A program made the position numbers and the translations under genes. A stretch of DNA of 64,000 nt from Syntrophobacteraceae bacterium (GTDB lineage: Bacteria > Desulfobacterota > Syntrophobacteria > Syntrophobacterales > Syntrophobacteraceae): NCBI GenBank assembly GCA_025454175.1, contig JALOOX010000005.1:1-64000 (forward strand). Reading direction: 5' to 3'. The notes beneath the pieces were generated by a model, which saw nothing but the letters and a program-made list of their open reading frames with translations, made no database searches and had not been told where the DNA came from. Every line of letters begins with the position of its first letter. The stretch's first letter is position 1. This document shows positions 8,209 through 14,571 of this stretch, piece after piece.

Positions 8209-8748
8209 ATGAGTCCCCAAATGGATCGTCGAGCTTTTCGCGACCTGAGCTATGGTCTTTACCTCGTCACTTCCATGGATGGAGACCGCCTGAATGGCCA
8301 GGTGGTGAACACCGTGATCCAGGTCACCTCGGACCCGGCACGCGTCGCGGTCATCATCAACAAGAAGAACCTCACCCATGATTTCATCTCCAGGAGCCGG
8401 GTCTTCGGGGTCACGGTGCTGGAGCAATCCGCTCCCATGGCCTTTTTCGGGCCCTTCGGGTTCCGCTCCGGCAGGGATGTCGAAAAGCTGTCCAGGGTGG
8501 AGTACAAACTGGGAACAACGGGATGTCCCCTGGTGACCGGGCATGCCTTGTCGGTCCTGGAAGCCCGGGTGCTCGACCAGATCGACCTGGGGACACACAC
8601 CATCTTCATTGGCGATGTGGTGAGCTCGGAGGTCCTGAAATCGGGACGACCCCTCACTTATCAGTACTACCATGAGGAGCTCAAGGGGAAATCGCCTCCG
8701 TCAGCGCCCACCTTCGAGCCTCCGGCGCAAGAGCAGCCAAAGGCATGA
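8209..8748 (+). CDS. Flavin reductase-like FMN-binding split-barrel protein
   Basis: 179 residues of the flavin reductase-like family. Typical elements are GLYLVTSMDG, the NTVIQVTSDPARVAV strand pair, NLTHDFI and the GTHTIFIGDVVSSE strand. The C-terminal TYQYYHEELKG segment resembles the linker of high-molecular-weight rubredoxins, but no rubredoxin domain follows. It may reduce flavin or act in diflavin electron transfer; the partner is unknown. The ATG follows a GGAAGAGG site. The next gene starts 15 bases downstream. Confidence 0.82.
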   Translation: MSPQMDRRAFRDLSYGLYLVTSMDGDRLNGQVVNTVIQVTSDPARVAVIINKKNLTHDFISRSRVFGVTVLEQSAPMAFFGPFGFRSGRDVEKLSRVEYKLGTTGCPLVTGHALSVLEARVLDQIDLGTHTIFIGDVVSSEVLKSGRPLTYQYYHEELKGKSPPSAPTFEPPAQEQPKA

Positions 8749-8763
8749 GGAGGCTCTGGAGGG

Positions 8764-10227
8764 ATGCAAATCGAAGCTTTTTTCCAGTCGCTTCTGAACC
8801 TTTGCCCACCGTGGAAGGTGGAGACGGTCATCGTCGATGCGGGGTTGGGCCCCGTCAATGTTCACGTGGCCTGGGAGCCATCGTCTCCGGTGCGTTGTCC
8901 GCAATGTGACCGCATCGGCAGCCTGCGGGGTTTTTCGGCGGCGAGGGTGTGGAAGCACCTGGATGCCTGCGGCAGGGAAACCCTTGTGAGCGCCGGCCTG
9001 CCCGTGGTGGATTGCAGGGACCACGGATGCCGGGAGGTCCCTCCACCCTGGGCTGCACCCGGTTCGGAAATGACACTGGAGCTGGAGCGGAGGGTTGCCG
9101 TCATGGCCGAGGAAATGGGCGATCCGAGAAAGGTCGCCCGTCTTCTCGGCATCGACGCGGTTTCGGTCCGCCGGGCCCTGCGGAGGACCAGGGGAAAAGA
9201 TGCGGGGCGAGACTTCGCCACGGGCAGCGGGCTCGGGGCCCCTGCACCGGAAGTCTCGTCGCCTGCGCCAAGGCAGCTGTCGCTCTTCGACCAGGGTGAC
9301 ATGTCCTTCGTCAATGCGGGCATCGCGTTTCTGAAGAATCTCGAATTCGACCAGTCCCTGGATGCCTTCAGCCGCCACAGGAGTGTCTTCCCCAGAGGCT
9401 ACGATGTCACGCCGCTCATGACCGTTGCCCGGTTCCTGCTCGACGGGCTCCAGGTCGTCCCCGCCGAGGCTTCCCGGTATGCGGAGCACCTCTTCGGCCT
9501 CTGGAAGGCTTGCGAGAAGCGTGTGGCTGAAGGAGACCTTCCAAGACTCCATGGCCAGTCCGAGCTGAAAGAGGCTTTCCTCGGTCGCATCATGGGGGAG
9601 GTAGAGGAGGCAGGCCTTCAAGAGGCCGTCTATCTGCCGGGTGGTCTGCCCCTGGCGAGGATTCTTCTCGAGGCCGGCCAGGTCGACCAGGCCGTGTCGA
9701 ACCTTCAGGCGGCCATCGTCGCGCATCCCCAGGACGCCATCCTTCACACCTGCCTCGGAGATGCCTGGTGGCACCGGGGCGAAGTGCGCGTCGCACGGCG
9801 GTGCTATTTCGAAGCCGGCATTGTCGATTCGGTCGGGATCGAGTGGGGCGGCGTCGCCGACGCGGACCTGAGCGACCTGGAAGCGGACCTGCTCCTGGAA
9901 TACGGAGGGGACGCCAGGATCGCACGGGCCTGGCTCCCCAGCCACGCCCGCATCGAAGGACTCTTCGAGCGCAGGGTGGCTCGACTCCACAATGGTTTGC
10001 AGGAACTGGTCAAGGACTATTCGAGCGTCGAAAATTCGGTGGCCCGGAGCGCCGACCCTGTGGCCCGGGCTCGCCTTTTTCTGCTGGGACTCGTTCTATG
10101 CGAGAATTCCGAGGACCTGAGATTCGTCGGAAGGATCGACCCCATTCAGATTCGTCGCGCCATGAAGCTGGCCAATGCGGACCTGTTTGACGATTTCCTC
10201 CAAAGGATTGTCCGGGAAGGAGGATGA
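8764..10227 (+). CDS. ISL3-transposase-type DNA-binding domain fused to TPR-like repeats
   Basis: 487 residues. Residues 40-140 match the N-terminal region of ISL3-family transposases: a CPQC zinc-binding pair (C45, C48), RVWKHLD, then CRDHGC (C84, H87), PPPW, and a helix-turn-helix around 106-140 (KVARLLGIDAVSVRRALRR). The DDE catalytic domain is absent. After a Pro/Ser-rich linker (145-172), residues 175-487 form TPR-like helical pairs, for example LARILLEAGQVDQAVSNLQ. There is no sign of decay: one long frame with a GAGGAGG site. It overlaps the following histidine kinase by ATGA. I infer a domesticated transposase domain turned regulator or scaffold; the function is unknown. Confidence 0.75.
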   Translation: MQIEAFFQSLLNLCPPWKVETVIVDAGLGPVNVHVAWEPSSPVRCPQCDRIGSLRGFSAARVWKHLDACGRETLVSAGLPVVDCRDHGCREVPPPWAAPGSEMTLELERRVAVMAEEMGDPRKVARLLGIDAVSVRRALRRTRGKDAGRDFATGSGLGAPAPEVSSPAPRQLSLFDQGDMSFVNAGIAFLKNLEFDQSLDAFSRHRSVFPRGYDVTPLMTVARFLLDGLQVVPAEASRYAEHLFGLWKACEKRVAEGDLPRLHGQSELKEAFLGRIMGEVEEAGLQEAVYLPGGLPLARILLEAGQVDQAVSNLQAAIVAHPQDAILHTCLGDAWWHRGEVRVARRCYFEAGIVDSVGIEWGGVADADLSDLEADLLLEYGGDARIARAWLPSHARIEGLFERRVARLHNGLQELVKDYSSVENSVARSADPVARARLFLLGLVLCENSEDLRFVGRIDPIQIRRAMKLANADLFDDFLQRIVREGG

Positions 10228-12770
10228 AGGCCGGAGAAGCTCAGGACATCCATAAGCGTGGAGCCATGATGACCATGCAGAACTGTTCGTCGAAGGGCAG
10301 GTTTGCCGAACCCTTCTCATCCCCGCTGAGGATCACCCTGATCTACGTTCTTGTGGGGTCACTCTGGATTCTGCTCTCGGACGAAATCCTGGGGCTCCTG
10401 GTCCACGATCCGGCAGTGATGACGCGAGTGGCCATGTTCAAGGGCTGGGGCTATGTCGCCGCGACGGGCTGGATGCTCCATGTGCTCATCAGCCGCGTGG
10501 TGTCGCGGGCGGAGCACTCCGAGGCGGGGGCCCGGTTGAGCGAAGTCCGGTACCGTGAGCTGGTGGAAAACGCCAACAGCATCATTCTCCGAATGGATGT
10601 CACCGGGCGCATCAGCTACATCAATCGGTTTGCCGAGGAATTTTTTGGATATGGCGCCGAGGAGATCCTGGGGCGGAATGTGGTGGGGACCATCGTGCCC
10701 GAGGTGGACCGTGCGGGGCGGAACCTGCGGGAGATGATCGAGGACATCGGCCGCAATCCCGAGCGGTACGTGAACAACGTCAACGAAAACAGGCGCAGGG
10801 ACGGGGAGAGCGTCTGGATCCTGTGGACCAATAAGCCCATACGGGACGACCGCGGTCAGGTCGTTGAGATCCTCTGTATCGGCAGCGACATGACCGTGCG
10901 GAAGCAATCGGAGGAAATGCTCGAGCGCTATGAGCTTCTGGCGGCCCACAGCCGGGACATCATCCTGTTCATGCGCCGGGAGGACGGCCGAATCCTCGAA
11001 GCCAACCGTGCGGCGGAGAAGGCTTACGGGTACAGCCGGGAGCAACTGCTGGGTCTCGGCATTCACGACCTGCGGGCTCCGGAAACGCGTGGGACCATCC
11101 CCGAGCAGATGGCGCGGGCGGACGAAGAGGGCGGCCTGTTCGAAACGGATCACCGTCGCTCCGACGGCAGCACCTTCCCGGTGGAGGTGAGCTCGAGGGG
11201 GGAGACCATCGGGGGGGTTCGCACACTCATCAGCGTGGTGCGGGACATCACCGAGCGCCGGCAGGCCGAAGCGGACCTGCGGGCCCACGAGGAGCGGCTG
11301 CGGCTGGCCCTGGAGGCCACGCATCAGGGGTGGTTCGACCTGCGGGTCGGGACGGGTGAAGTGATCGTCAGCCCGGAGTACTTCCGCATCATCGGGTATG
11401 AGCCCCAGGAATTCACCGCCACCGTGGACGGATGGATTGCCGCGATACATCCCGACGACCGGGATGCCGTGGTGAGGGCCTACCGTGACTGCCTGGAGTC
11501 GGGGGAAACCGGGAGCATGGAGTACCGTCGCCAGACCAAGACGGGTGGCTGGAAATGGATCCGCTCCATCGGAAGGGTCGTTGAATACGATTCCGCGAAG
11601 AGACCCCTGAGAATGATCGGCACCCACACCGACATCTCCGAGCGCAAGAAGGTGGAGGAGGCTCTGCAGGAGAGCCAGGAGAGGTTCAGGGAGTTGGCCG
11701 AGCTGCTGCCCGAGAGCATCTTCGAAATGGATCCGGATGGGAATCTTGCGTTTGTGAATCAAAAGGCCTTCGACCTCTTCGGCTATTCCAGGGACGATTT
11801 CGAGGCGGGCTTGAACTGCATGGACATGCTCTCCCCCGAGGAGCGCCAGAGGGCGGGGGAGAATATCGGGAGAATCATGCGGGGAGAGAAGATCGGCCAC
11901 ACCGAGTACAGGATGCTGAAAAAGGACGGAACTGCCTTTCTCGCGGCTTTGCGGTCGAGTCCCATATATCGAAACGGCAGGCCGGTGGGCCTGAGGGGTG
12001 TAGTTATCGACATGACGGAATCCAGGATGCTCGAGGCCCAGCTGCGGCAGGCGGCCAAGATGGAGGCCGTCGGCACGCTGGCAGGAGGAATCGCTCATGA
12101 TTTCAATAATCTGCTCCAGGCCATCCATGGGTTCGCCGAGCTTCTGATCCTGAAAAGGGGCGAGCACGGGGCCGGAGATCGGGAGCTCAAGGAAATCTGC
12201 ACCGCGGCCCGGAGGGGAGGCGAGCTCACCCGCCAGCTGCTCGCATTCAGCCGCAAGATGGAGTCCCATCTGGAGCCGGTGGAGCTCAACCGGGTCCTCG
12301 GGGATGTGCGAAGACTGCTGGAGCGGACCATCCCCAAAATGATCAGCATCGAGCTGCAACTGGCCGAGGACCTTCCCAGGGTGCATGCGGACGCCTCGCA
12401 GATGGAGCAGATCCTGATGAATCTGACGCTCAACGCGAGAGATGCCATGCCTGAGGGCGGCAGACTGTCCATCGAGACGAAGTCTTTCCTGCTGGATGCG
12501 ACGACGTGGCGCGGCGGGCCGGACCTGCCGCCCGGCCGCTATGTGCGGCTCACCGTCTCGGACACGGGGCAGGGAATGGACGGGGCCACCCTGGAGCACA
12601 TCTTCGACCCGTTCTTCACCACCAAGGAGGTGGGCAAGGGCACCGGTCTCGGCCTGGCCATGGTCTACGGCATCGTCCAGAACCATCACGGGCACGTCCT
12701 GTGCCGGAGCGAGCCGGGCCGGGGAACATCCTTTGAAATCTATCTGCCCGCCATCGAAAGCGAAGCGTGA
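10224..12770 (+). CDS. Membrane-anchored multi-PAS sensor histidine kinase
   Basis: 848 residues. Two N-terminal membrane helices (about 36-60 and 76-93) are followed by four PAS domains (about 105-225, 228-345, 352-470 and 480-600), the third with PAC-like TDISERK at its end. The HisKA box GGIAHDFNN places the phosphoaccepting histidine near residue 625. The HATPase has NARDAMP (N box), DTGQGM and [12 protein letters not shown]. No receiver domain follows and no response regulator gene is adjacent. Its ATG overlaps the stop of the ISL3-TPR gene, so the two are translationally coupled; ATGs at 10266 and 10269 are less favoured alternatives. Confidence 0.9.
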
Positions 12771-12854
12771 TAGCGCAGGGACGCGAAGGATGATACTCTC
12801 GATGTGGGGGGTGAAGCTTCCCGGACAAACGGGGCAAAGCCGCGGAGGACGGTC

Positions 12855-14279
12855 ATGGACAGGTTGCGAGTCGGGGTCAGGGACCCGGTTCTGGTCCTTC
12901 CCGGGGCGGGGGACAAGCTGAGCCATCTGAAAGCGGGGGACGTGGTCCGCGGCCGGGTGGTGAAAGTGCTGGCCTCGGGCGAGATGAGCCTCCGCATCGG
13001 AGGGGCATTGGTGCAGGCCAGGTCCGCCGGCCCTGTTCCCGTGGGTGCGGGCATCCTGTTTCGGGTTCTGGGGCAGGAGGGAGCGCAGGCCGGCGCAGGG
13101 CTTCGGCTGCAGGTCCTTCAGATGGTGGACGGTCCCGAAGCTGGCTCGCCGGGTCGAAGCGGGGCGCGGGAACCCGGCGCGATACCCTTGTCCAGCCCCG
13201 CGGGCGATCCTGCGACGGAAACGATTCGGAGCCTGGCCCGGGAACTGGCGGCTCAGGCGCCGCTGAAAAGCGGTCAGGGTGAGGACCTTGCCGCAACCCT
13301 CCGACAGCTCCTCAAGGCCCTGCCTGACGATCCGGCATCGCTCCCGCCGGAGCTTCGGCATCATCTGCTCGGCCTTCTGCGGTCCAGGCTCAGGGAGACG
13401 GAGCAGAGCATCCAGCGGCGCGCCGCTCGACTTTTGGGCGATTCGGCCGTCCAGGAGCTGCCTGAGCTCCCGGAGCTTTCGGAGCTTCCCGAGTCCGCCC
13501 ATCCGCCGCGCGCAAGGCCTCCCCTTTTTGCCGAGGCCGAGAAGATCCTGCAGATTCCATTGAAGGCCCTGCTTCAGGATACGGGCGTGGGCCTCGAGTC
13601 CAAGCTGAAAGCCCTTGCCCGGGCACTCCTTGCCGAAGACGGATCGAGCCCGGAGGGCGAATGGACCCCCGGTTCTCAAGGGAGCCCACCTGCCGGGCAC
13701 ACCCTCCTGGGGAACGATCTCAAGGCAAGGCTCCTGCAACTGCGTCAGTGGCTCCAGGATCACGAAGCCGCAGCCCCGGACTCCCCGGCAGACGCCGGAG
13801 CTGCCGCCGGGAGGGCTTCGGGTGAGGCGACCGACCGGTTGGAGAGGCTTCTTCCCGCGGTGGAAGGGCTGCTCCGGGATATCGAGACCTTCCAGCTCCT
13901 CTCGAAGCTCACCAGCTCCTTCTGCACTTTCCTGCCCCTGCTCTGGAAGGGCCTCAGGGAGGGTGACATCGCCTTCAAGCGAGGCCGGGCCGGAGGAGGG
14001 GACCCAATCCACTATTGCGTTCTGAACCTGGATTTCGAGAGCCTGGGGAAGGTGACCATTGTGGCCATGATGCAGGGTGGGGATTTCTTCCTGTCCTTCA
14101 AGTCGGACCGGCAGGGGCTGCAATCGGCCCTGAGCGGCAGCGCTCATGAGCTTGAGGAGATGTTTCTCCAGGAGGGGCTGCGTCTCGGGGGGATCAGCTT
14201 CGTTGCGGCTGATGACCCCCGTTTGACCCCGTTTGAAAGACTCGATGCCTTCGAGAGTGTCCTGAACCTCAAGATTTGA
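12855..14279 (+). CDS. FliK-like hook-length control family protein
   Basis: 474 residues. The N-terminal part (LRVGVRDPV..., GDVVRGRVVKVLASGEMSLRIGG) is a small beta domain. The centre (about 100-330) is rich in Gly, Pro, Ala and Leu and poorly conserved. The last 120 residues (FLPLLWKGLREGDIAFKRG, DFESLGKVTIVAMM, FFLSFKSDR) match the C-terminal domain of FliK-like proteins. The pairing with an FlhB-C-like gene 16 bases downstream mirrors the ylqG-ylqH pair of Bacillus, which supports a link to a flagellar or type III export gate. The ATG at 12855 follows GGAGGA; the frame is open from 12804. Confidence 0.7.
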   Translation: MDRLRVGVRDPVLVLPGAGDKLSHLKAGDVVRGRVVKVLASGEMSLRIGGALVQARSAGPVPVGAGILFRVLGQEGAQAGAGLRLQVLQMVDGPEAGSPGRSGAREPGAIPLSSPAGDPATETIRSLARELAAQAPLKSGQGEDLAATLRQLLKALPDDPASLPPELRHHLLGLLRSRLRETEQSIQRRAARLLGDSAVQELPELPELSELPESAHPPRARPPLFAEAEKILQIPLKALLQDTGVGLESKLKALARALLAEDGSSPEGEWTPGSQGSPPAGHTLLGNDLKARLLQLRQWLQDHEAAAPDSPADAGAAAGRASGEATDRLERLLPAVEGLLRDIETFQLLSKLTSSFCTFLPLLWKGLREGDIAFKRGRAGGGDPIHYCVLNLDFESLGKVTIVAMMQGGDFFLSFKSDRQGLQSALSGSAHELEEMFLQEGLRLGGISFVAADDPRLTPFERLDAFESVLNLKI

Positions 14280-14295
14280 ATCCCTGGAGAAGCCC

Positions 14296-14571
14296 GTGAC
14301 AGAAAAGATGAGAAAGGCCGCGGTCCTGAAGTACAAGCACCAGATCGATCGGGCTCCGAAGCTCATCGCCAAGGGCAAGGGGGCCGTCGCCGACCGTATC
14401 CTGGAGCTGGCCCGCAAGCACCGCATCCCCATCGAGAGGGATCCGGCTCTCGTCGAGGTCCTGAGCCAGCTCGACATCGACCAGGAGATCCCACCCGATC
14501 TCTATCGGGCCGTTGCGCAAGTGCTGGCCTACGTCTATCGTGTGACCCGGAAGCTGGAAGGTGCGGGATGA
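14296..14571 (+). CDS. FlhB C-terminal-domain-like protein
   Basis: A free-standing 91-residue copy of the cytoplasmic C-terminal domain of FlhB (FhlB/YlqH type). KAAVLKY, APKLIAKGKGAVADRILELA, IPIERDPALVEVL and EIPPDLYRAVAQVLAYVY align with the region of FlhB after its NPTH autocleavage site. NPTH itself and the membrane domain are absent. It starts with GTG after a GGAGA site. It follows the FliK-like gene at 16 bases; in full systems FliK and FlhB-C set the export substrate switch. No flagellar genes lie in the window. Confidence 0.85.
   Translation: MTEKMRKAAVLKYKHQIDRAPKLIAKGKGAVADRILELARKHRIPIERDPALVEVLSQLDIDQEIPPDLYRAVAQVLAYVYRVTRKLEGAG

Follow-up and report, generated by a model that had tools for sequence, protein, structure and literature searches.

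Gene Architecture and Genomic Setting

The analyzed window, the first 64,000 nucleotides of contig JALOOX010000005.1 from a Syntrophobacteraceae bacterium, contains on its plus strand an intact open reading frame of 487 codons (positions 8764–10227) in which the DNA-binding head of an ISL3 transposase (residues 42–141) is joined to a TPR-type alpha-solenoid (residues 177–487) within a single 487-aa protein; the start codon is preceded, 10 nucleotides upstream, by a ribosome-binding-site-like GGAGG (8749–8753, plus strand), consistent with the one intact frame and good ribosome binding site that the sequence-only reading had described. The head consists of a zinc ribbon (aa 42–87; 8887–9024; Pfam PF14690, Zn_ribbon_ISL3, E 1.4e-5), also recognizable in the alignment, and a helix-turn-helix (aa 93–141; 9040–9186; Pfam PF13542, HTH_Tnp_ISL3, E 1.3e-6) with helices at residues 102–118, 121–128, and 132–146. 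A variable, disordered linker with high column entropy follows (aa 144–170; 9193–9273); it leads to the pentapeptide QLSLF (aa 171–175; 9274–9288), a motif of the beta-clamp-binding type that marks the fusion junction, and then to the solenoid (9292–10224), which is matched by TPR_16 at residues 297–345 (E 3e-8) and has 16 helices in the structural model. All three Pfam matches lie above the gathering score. An AlphaFold model built with 11 sequences (mean pLDDT 80) is a confident two-domain structure that proceeds from a small mixed head through the three helices of the helix-turn-helix region and a disordered stretch (residues 144–176, pLDDT <50) to an all-helical solenoid that extends to the C-terminus.

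A flavin-reductase-like gene (8209–8748, plus strand; Pfam Flavin_Reduct) ends 15 nucleotides before the fusion gene and is not conserved as its partner. On the downstream side, a PAS histidine kinase gene (10224–12770, plus strand) is a neighbor in the source genome only; its first ATG overlaps the TGA stop codon of the fusion (as ATGA), which raises the possibility of translational coupling between the two genes in this genome. Farther downstream (12804–14571), genes for a FliK-like protein and a 91-aa FlhB-tail-like protein form a pair that is conserved, at a distance from the fusion gene, in three other genomes (G008, G011, and G015). On the minus strand, a 1372-aa open frame (10359–14477) lies opposite the genes for the histidine kinase and the FliK-like protein and is probably a by-product of high-GC codon use. 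No Rfam RNA and no convincing promoter or terminator were found near the fusion gene. A conserved operon was considered and rejected, as the locus differs between genera and the FliK/FlhB neighbors are found with no fusion beside them in G008, G011, and G015; among the loci compared, no conserved operon partner pointing to replication and no regulon- or signal-like neighbor was found. Three g7 genomes (G017, G022, and G023) do share their fusion neighbors, including a downstream GNAT acetyltransferase gene, which indicates vertical inheritance of the fusion within g7. Directly upstream of the fusion in G025, a gene (L033, 7350–7829) resembles, by eye, a REP-associated tyrosine (Y1) transposase.

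Absence of Transposase Function

The NCBIfam model for ISL3 transposases (NF033550) aligned with the protein only over positions 4–111 of the 370-position profile, and its score of 43 bits falls short of the cut-off (180); the catalytic part is therefore absent. The source genome lacks the ISL3 DDE domain (PF01610) throughout and has only this one ISL3 zinc ribbon, so that the ISL3 head is present in single copy, and no IS-like terminal inverted repeats were found around the fusion gene, where only short, chance-like pairs occur inside genes. The proposal that an ISL3 zinc and helix-turn-helix region lacking a DDE domain had been fused to TPR repeats is in this way borne out by Pfam, by NCBIfam, and by the genome-wide absence of the DDE domain. 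Like ISL3 transposases, the fusion carries an N-terminal zinc ribbon and helix-turn-helix, with approximately 30–34% identity to plasmid-borne ISL3 elements over residues 1–200 or less; unlike them, it has no DDE domain, no detectable terminal repeats, and no multiple or mobile copies, and it is joined to a TPR solenoid. Identification as an ISL3 transposase was rejected on these grounds; the gene encodes a host protein that is unable to transpose. A downstream DDE remnant, which together with a fusion unique to this genome had been named as the sign of an accidental fusion, was likewise rejected, since no ISL3 DDE domain exists anywhere in the genome and other copies of the fusion exist.

Relatives and Single Origin of the Fusion

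A search for full-length relatives in 60 related genomes recovered the same fusion in six of them (G025, G024, G023, G022, G017, and G006), at 36–43% identity to the window copy. Together with the latter, these constitute seven intact frames of 487–566 aa that share 36–72% identity; an eighth copy, in G015, is split by a contig break, and a ninth, in G020 (L098, G020:C251, 8160–9157), has decayed through the loss of approximately 460 bp, which takes in the end of the helix-turn-helix, the QxxLF pentapeptide, and the initial helices of the TPR part. All copies are confined to one family, the Syntrophobacteraceae, where about 9 of 26 genomes carry the fusion; the one congener searched (G001, 88% complete) is without it. 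This patchy presence indicates that the fusion is dispensable.

The TPR region, from residue 170 onward, is also encoded on its own, as a protein of approximately 320 aa, in genomes from other classes of the phylum, with a patchy distribution (17 of 395 genomes sampled); no plasmid-borne relatives of it were found. One such homologue was modeled as an all-helical solenoid with pLDDT 89 and pTM 0.84. The free-standing proteins begin with M..EQLSLFG..., and their start aligns exactly with the RQLSLFDQ at the fusion junction. In a tree of ISL3 heads, eight fusion heads form one clade (support 99/99) apart from 19 transposase heads, with the window copy on a long branch; in the TPR tree, the fusions group together (89/99; recovered in 90% of bootstrap trees) among the free-standing forms. 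The simplest history, well supported by these comparisons, would be that an ISL3 head was added once to an older, free-standing TPR protein; this direction, from insertion sequence to host protein, follows from a recipient that already existed on its own with its own N-terminal QxxLF. The sequence-only reading had postulated capture of a transposon DNA-binding module for a new cellular role. The capture itself is upheld by seven intact fusions within one family, a single head clade (99/99), and dN/dS below 1, whereas the recipient turns out to have existed beforehand in free-standing form; that the TPR part is an older independent protein whose start marks the junction exactly had not been part of that reading.

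A few free-standing TPR genes and one fusion copy occur in repair- or CRISPR-related settings. In L100 (G391:C19, 776–10665), recC, recB, and recD are followed, 63 bp downstream and on the same strand, by a free-standing TPR gene, an arrangement that suggests a repair-linked operon. In L102 (G081:C7, 3790–4740), the TPR gene lies between cas3 and cas1/cas2/cas4 of a type I CRISPR-cas locus; another free-standing gene (L101, G232:C8, 9741–10706) and the G015 fusion (L116, G015:C261, 9319–9463) each precede a co-oriented type I cas operon, one by 1.5 kb and one by 0.65 kb. Three of approximately 27 TPR-module genes are thus located at type I cas loci, against approximately 0.2 expected within 12 kb (an expectation estimated from 28 cas1 places in 27 genomes), a count that was made post hoc. 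Genomic context yields hints only.

Selective Constraint

Ratios of nonsynonymous to synonymous change were calculated by the Nei-Gojobori method for the two least diverged pairs, G022/G023 and G022/G017; other pairs were saturated at synonymous sites. The dN/dS ratio of the head was approximately 0.38 (G022/G023) and 0.36 (G022/G017), and that of the TPR part approximately 0.13 and 0.19, respectively; in round terms, about 0.4 for the head and 0.13–0.2 for the TPR part. Both parts are under purifying selection. The presumed zinc ligands C45, C48, C84, and H87 are invariant in the alignment of all seven intact fusions; these invariant positions, together with dN/dS values well below 1, exclude a recent accident. 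Since the fusion has been maintained by natural selection across the family, it represents a real cellular gene.

The Junction Motif

The junction pentapeptides of the seven fusions are QLSLF (the window copy and three others), QLNLF, QASLF, and QLPLF; motif positions 1, 4, and 5 (Q171, L174, and F175) are invariant in all seven, and the preceding linker columns vary widely. The motif QxxLF is present in each of the 11 close free-standing homologues whose N-terminus is intact and in five of nine distant ones (QLPLF, QLTLF, and three instances of QLDLF); the other four distant homologues have QLDVF in one case and PTLF in three, all from one family. The sequence QL[S/D]LF, and more generally QxxLF, is the commonest bacterial clamp-binding motif, in which positions 1, 4, and 5 are critical (PMC12309361), and the form QLxLF serves transposases and repair enzymes that bind the clamp (PMC4549789). 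Within the same genomes, Y-family polymerases carry QMSLF (source genome), QLPLF (G022), QASLF (G006), and QLSLF (G025). The strict pattern QL[SD]LF occurred 12 times in 296 neighboring open reading frames (111,169 aa), each time in a member of this protein family. Across the source genome, the pattern QL[S/D/A/E/Y]LF gave 16 matches at the DNA level versus 30 for a reversed-pattern control; by eye, most of the 16 look spurious or antisense, the exceptions being the matches in the fusion gene and in an HdrC-like gene (QLALF).

In the models of both the fusion and the free-standing form, the motif lies within flexible sequence of low confidence; in the latter, residues 1–7 have pLDDT <50 and the first helix starts at residue 7. 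In sequence, in setting, and in conservation, the junction motif matches what is expected of a clamp-binding peptide, from which we infer clamp binding. As a caveat, conservation extends to residues beside the motif, N184 among them, and QxxLF could serve the fold rather than the clamp, in a purely structural role as solenoid cap, because it directly precedes the first TPR helix.

Comparison with Known Systems

NprR, PlcR, and MalT are regulators that combine a DNA-binding head with a TPR solenoid. The fusion shares this layout; it differs in that its head is an ISL3 zinc ribbon and helix-turn-helix, and in the absence of a significant fold match. With clamp-binding proteins such as PolC, DnaE, Y-family polymerases, and Hda, it has in common a canonical pentapeptide in a flexible segment beside a folded domain; in the fusion, however, this domain is a TPR solenoid in which no enzyme can be recognized, and clamp binding is predicted from the motif. 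Hda carries its clamp-binding peptide, QLSLPL, at the N-terminus, the position that the motif also occupies in the free-standing TPR form. Beta-clamp-binding transposases (IS1634 and others; PMC4549789) likewise carry a peptide of the clamp-binding type within the same protein as a DNA-binding part; their motif is almost always C-terminal and belongs to an active transposase (PMC4549789), whereas the fusion received its motif along with the TPR partner and lacks catalysis.

Proposed Function and Alternatives

Domain content, a single fusion event, selective constraint, an exact junction, motif conservation, and linker disorder are all directly evidenced. The best reading, which we consider to have about an even chance of being correct, is that of a non-transposing TPR adaptor tethered to the sliding clamp and equipped with a captured ISL3 head that recognizes DNA sites. 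The old free-standing TPR scaffold would carry QxxLF as an N-terminal peptide for binding the sliding clamp (DnaN); when the ISL3 zinc ribbon and helix-turn-helix were joined once in front of it, in the Syntrophobacteraceae, this peptide came to lie in the linker. There it could dock the protein on the beta clamp, leaving the TPR solenoid to hold a partner and the ISL3 head to guide the whole assembly to, or keep it at, specific sites on double-stranded DNA; binding to DNA, like the identity of the partner and of the sites, is something we infer.

The main rival to the clamp-tethered adaptor, unlikely in our estimate and still to be taken seriously, is a one-component transcription regulator whose ISL3 head binds operators and whose TPR part senses a peptide or protein signal, with QxxLF capping the solenoid without any clamp binding. 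A helix-turn-helix combined with TPR repeats is a common regulator architecture, and the window gene is flanked by flavin reductase and histidine kinase genes; yet no conserved neighbor resembles a regulon or signal gene, and neither Pfam nor NCBIfam matched the protein to RRNPP/MalT-type regulators. Rap and NprR do appear among the fold matches, but these are non-significant, as no match was found at E ≤ 0.001. The older free-standing form, moreover, retains QxxLF despite having no DNA-binding domain.

Two further readings were considered. It is improbable that the protein is an antagonist of insertion sequences, its head still recognizing ISL3 terminal repeats and thereby blocking ISL3 transposition in the cell; the head is transposase-derived and retains all presumed zinc ligands, but an ISL3 DDE element that could be antagonized is missing from the source genome and from most carriers. 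Of the seven genomes whose fusion is intact, six have no ISL3 DDE domains and only G025 does; G015, with its contig-split fusion, has others; the source genome also has no other ISL3 zinc ribbon, and the known elements with the most similar heads are only about one-third identical. Least credible, and contradicted by the selection data, is a functionless chance fusion in frame that is drifting toward loss: patchy presence, the missing middle (approximately 460 bp) of the G020 copy, and the long branch of the window copy are compatible with it, but seven intact frames of 487–566 aa with 36–72% identity, dN/dS values of 0.13–0.4, and invariant zinc ligands and motif argue against it.

Cases in which a transposase DNA-binding domain has been domesticated are known; a published description of this fusion, or of a TPR clamp client, was not found in the open-licence literature searched. 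For bacterial transposons, a domesticated DNA-binding head is rarely encountered in a form that reveals the recipient, the precise junction, and a single origin together, as is the case here. Somewhat more tentatively than for the fusion protein itself, the Desulfobacterota may harbor a family of sliding-clamp-tethered TPR adaptors, one lineage of which captured a transposon head and became a replication-coupled, site-aimed factor. If QxxLF binds DnaN, TPR scaffolds would join the clamp clients, and the fusion would represent a new, testable way of coupling a site-specific DNA binder to replication.
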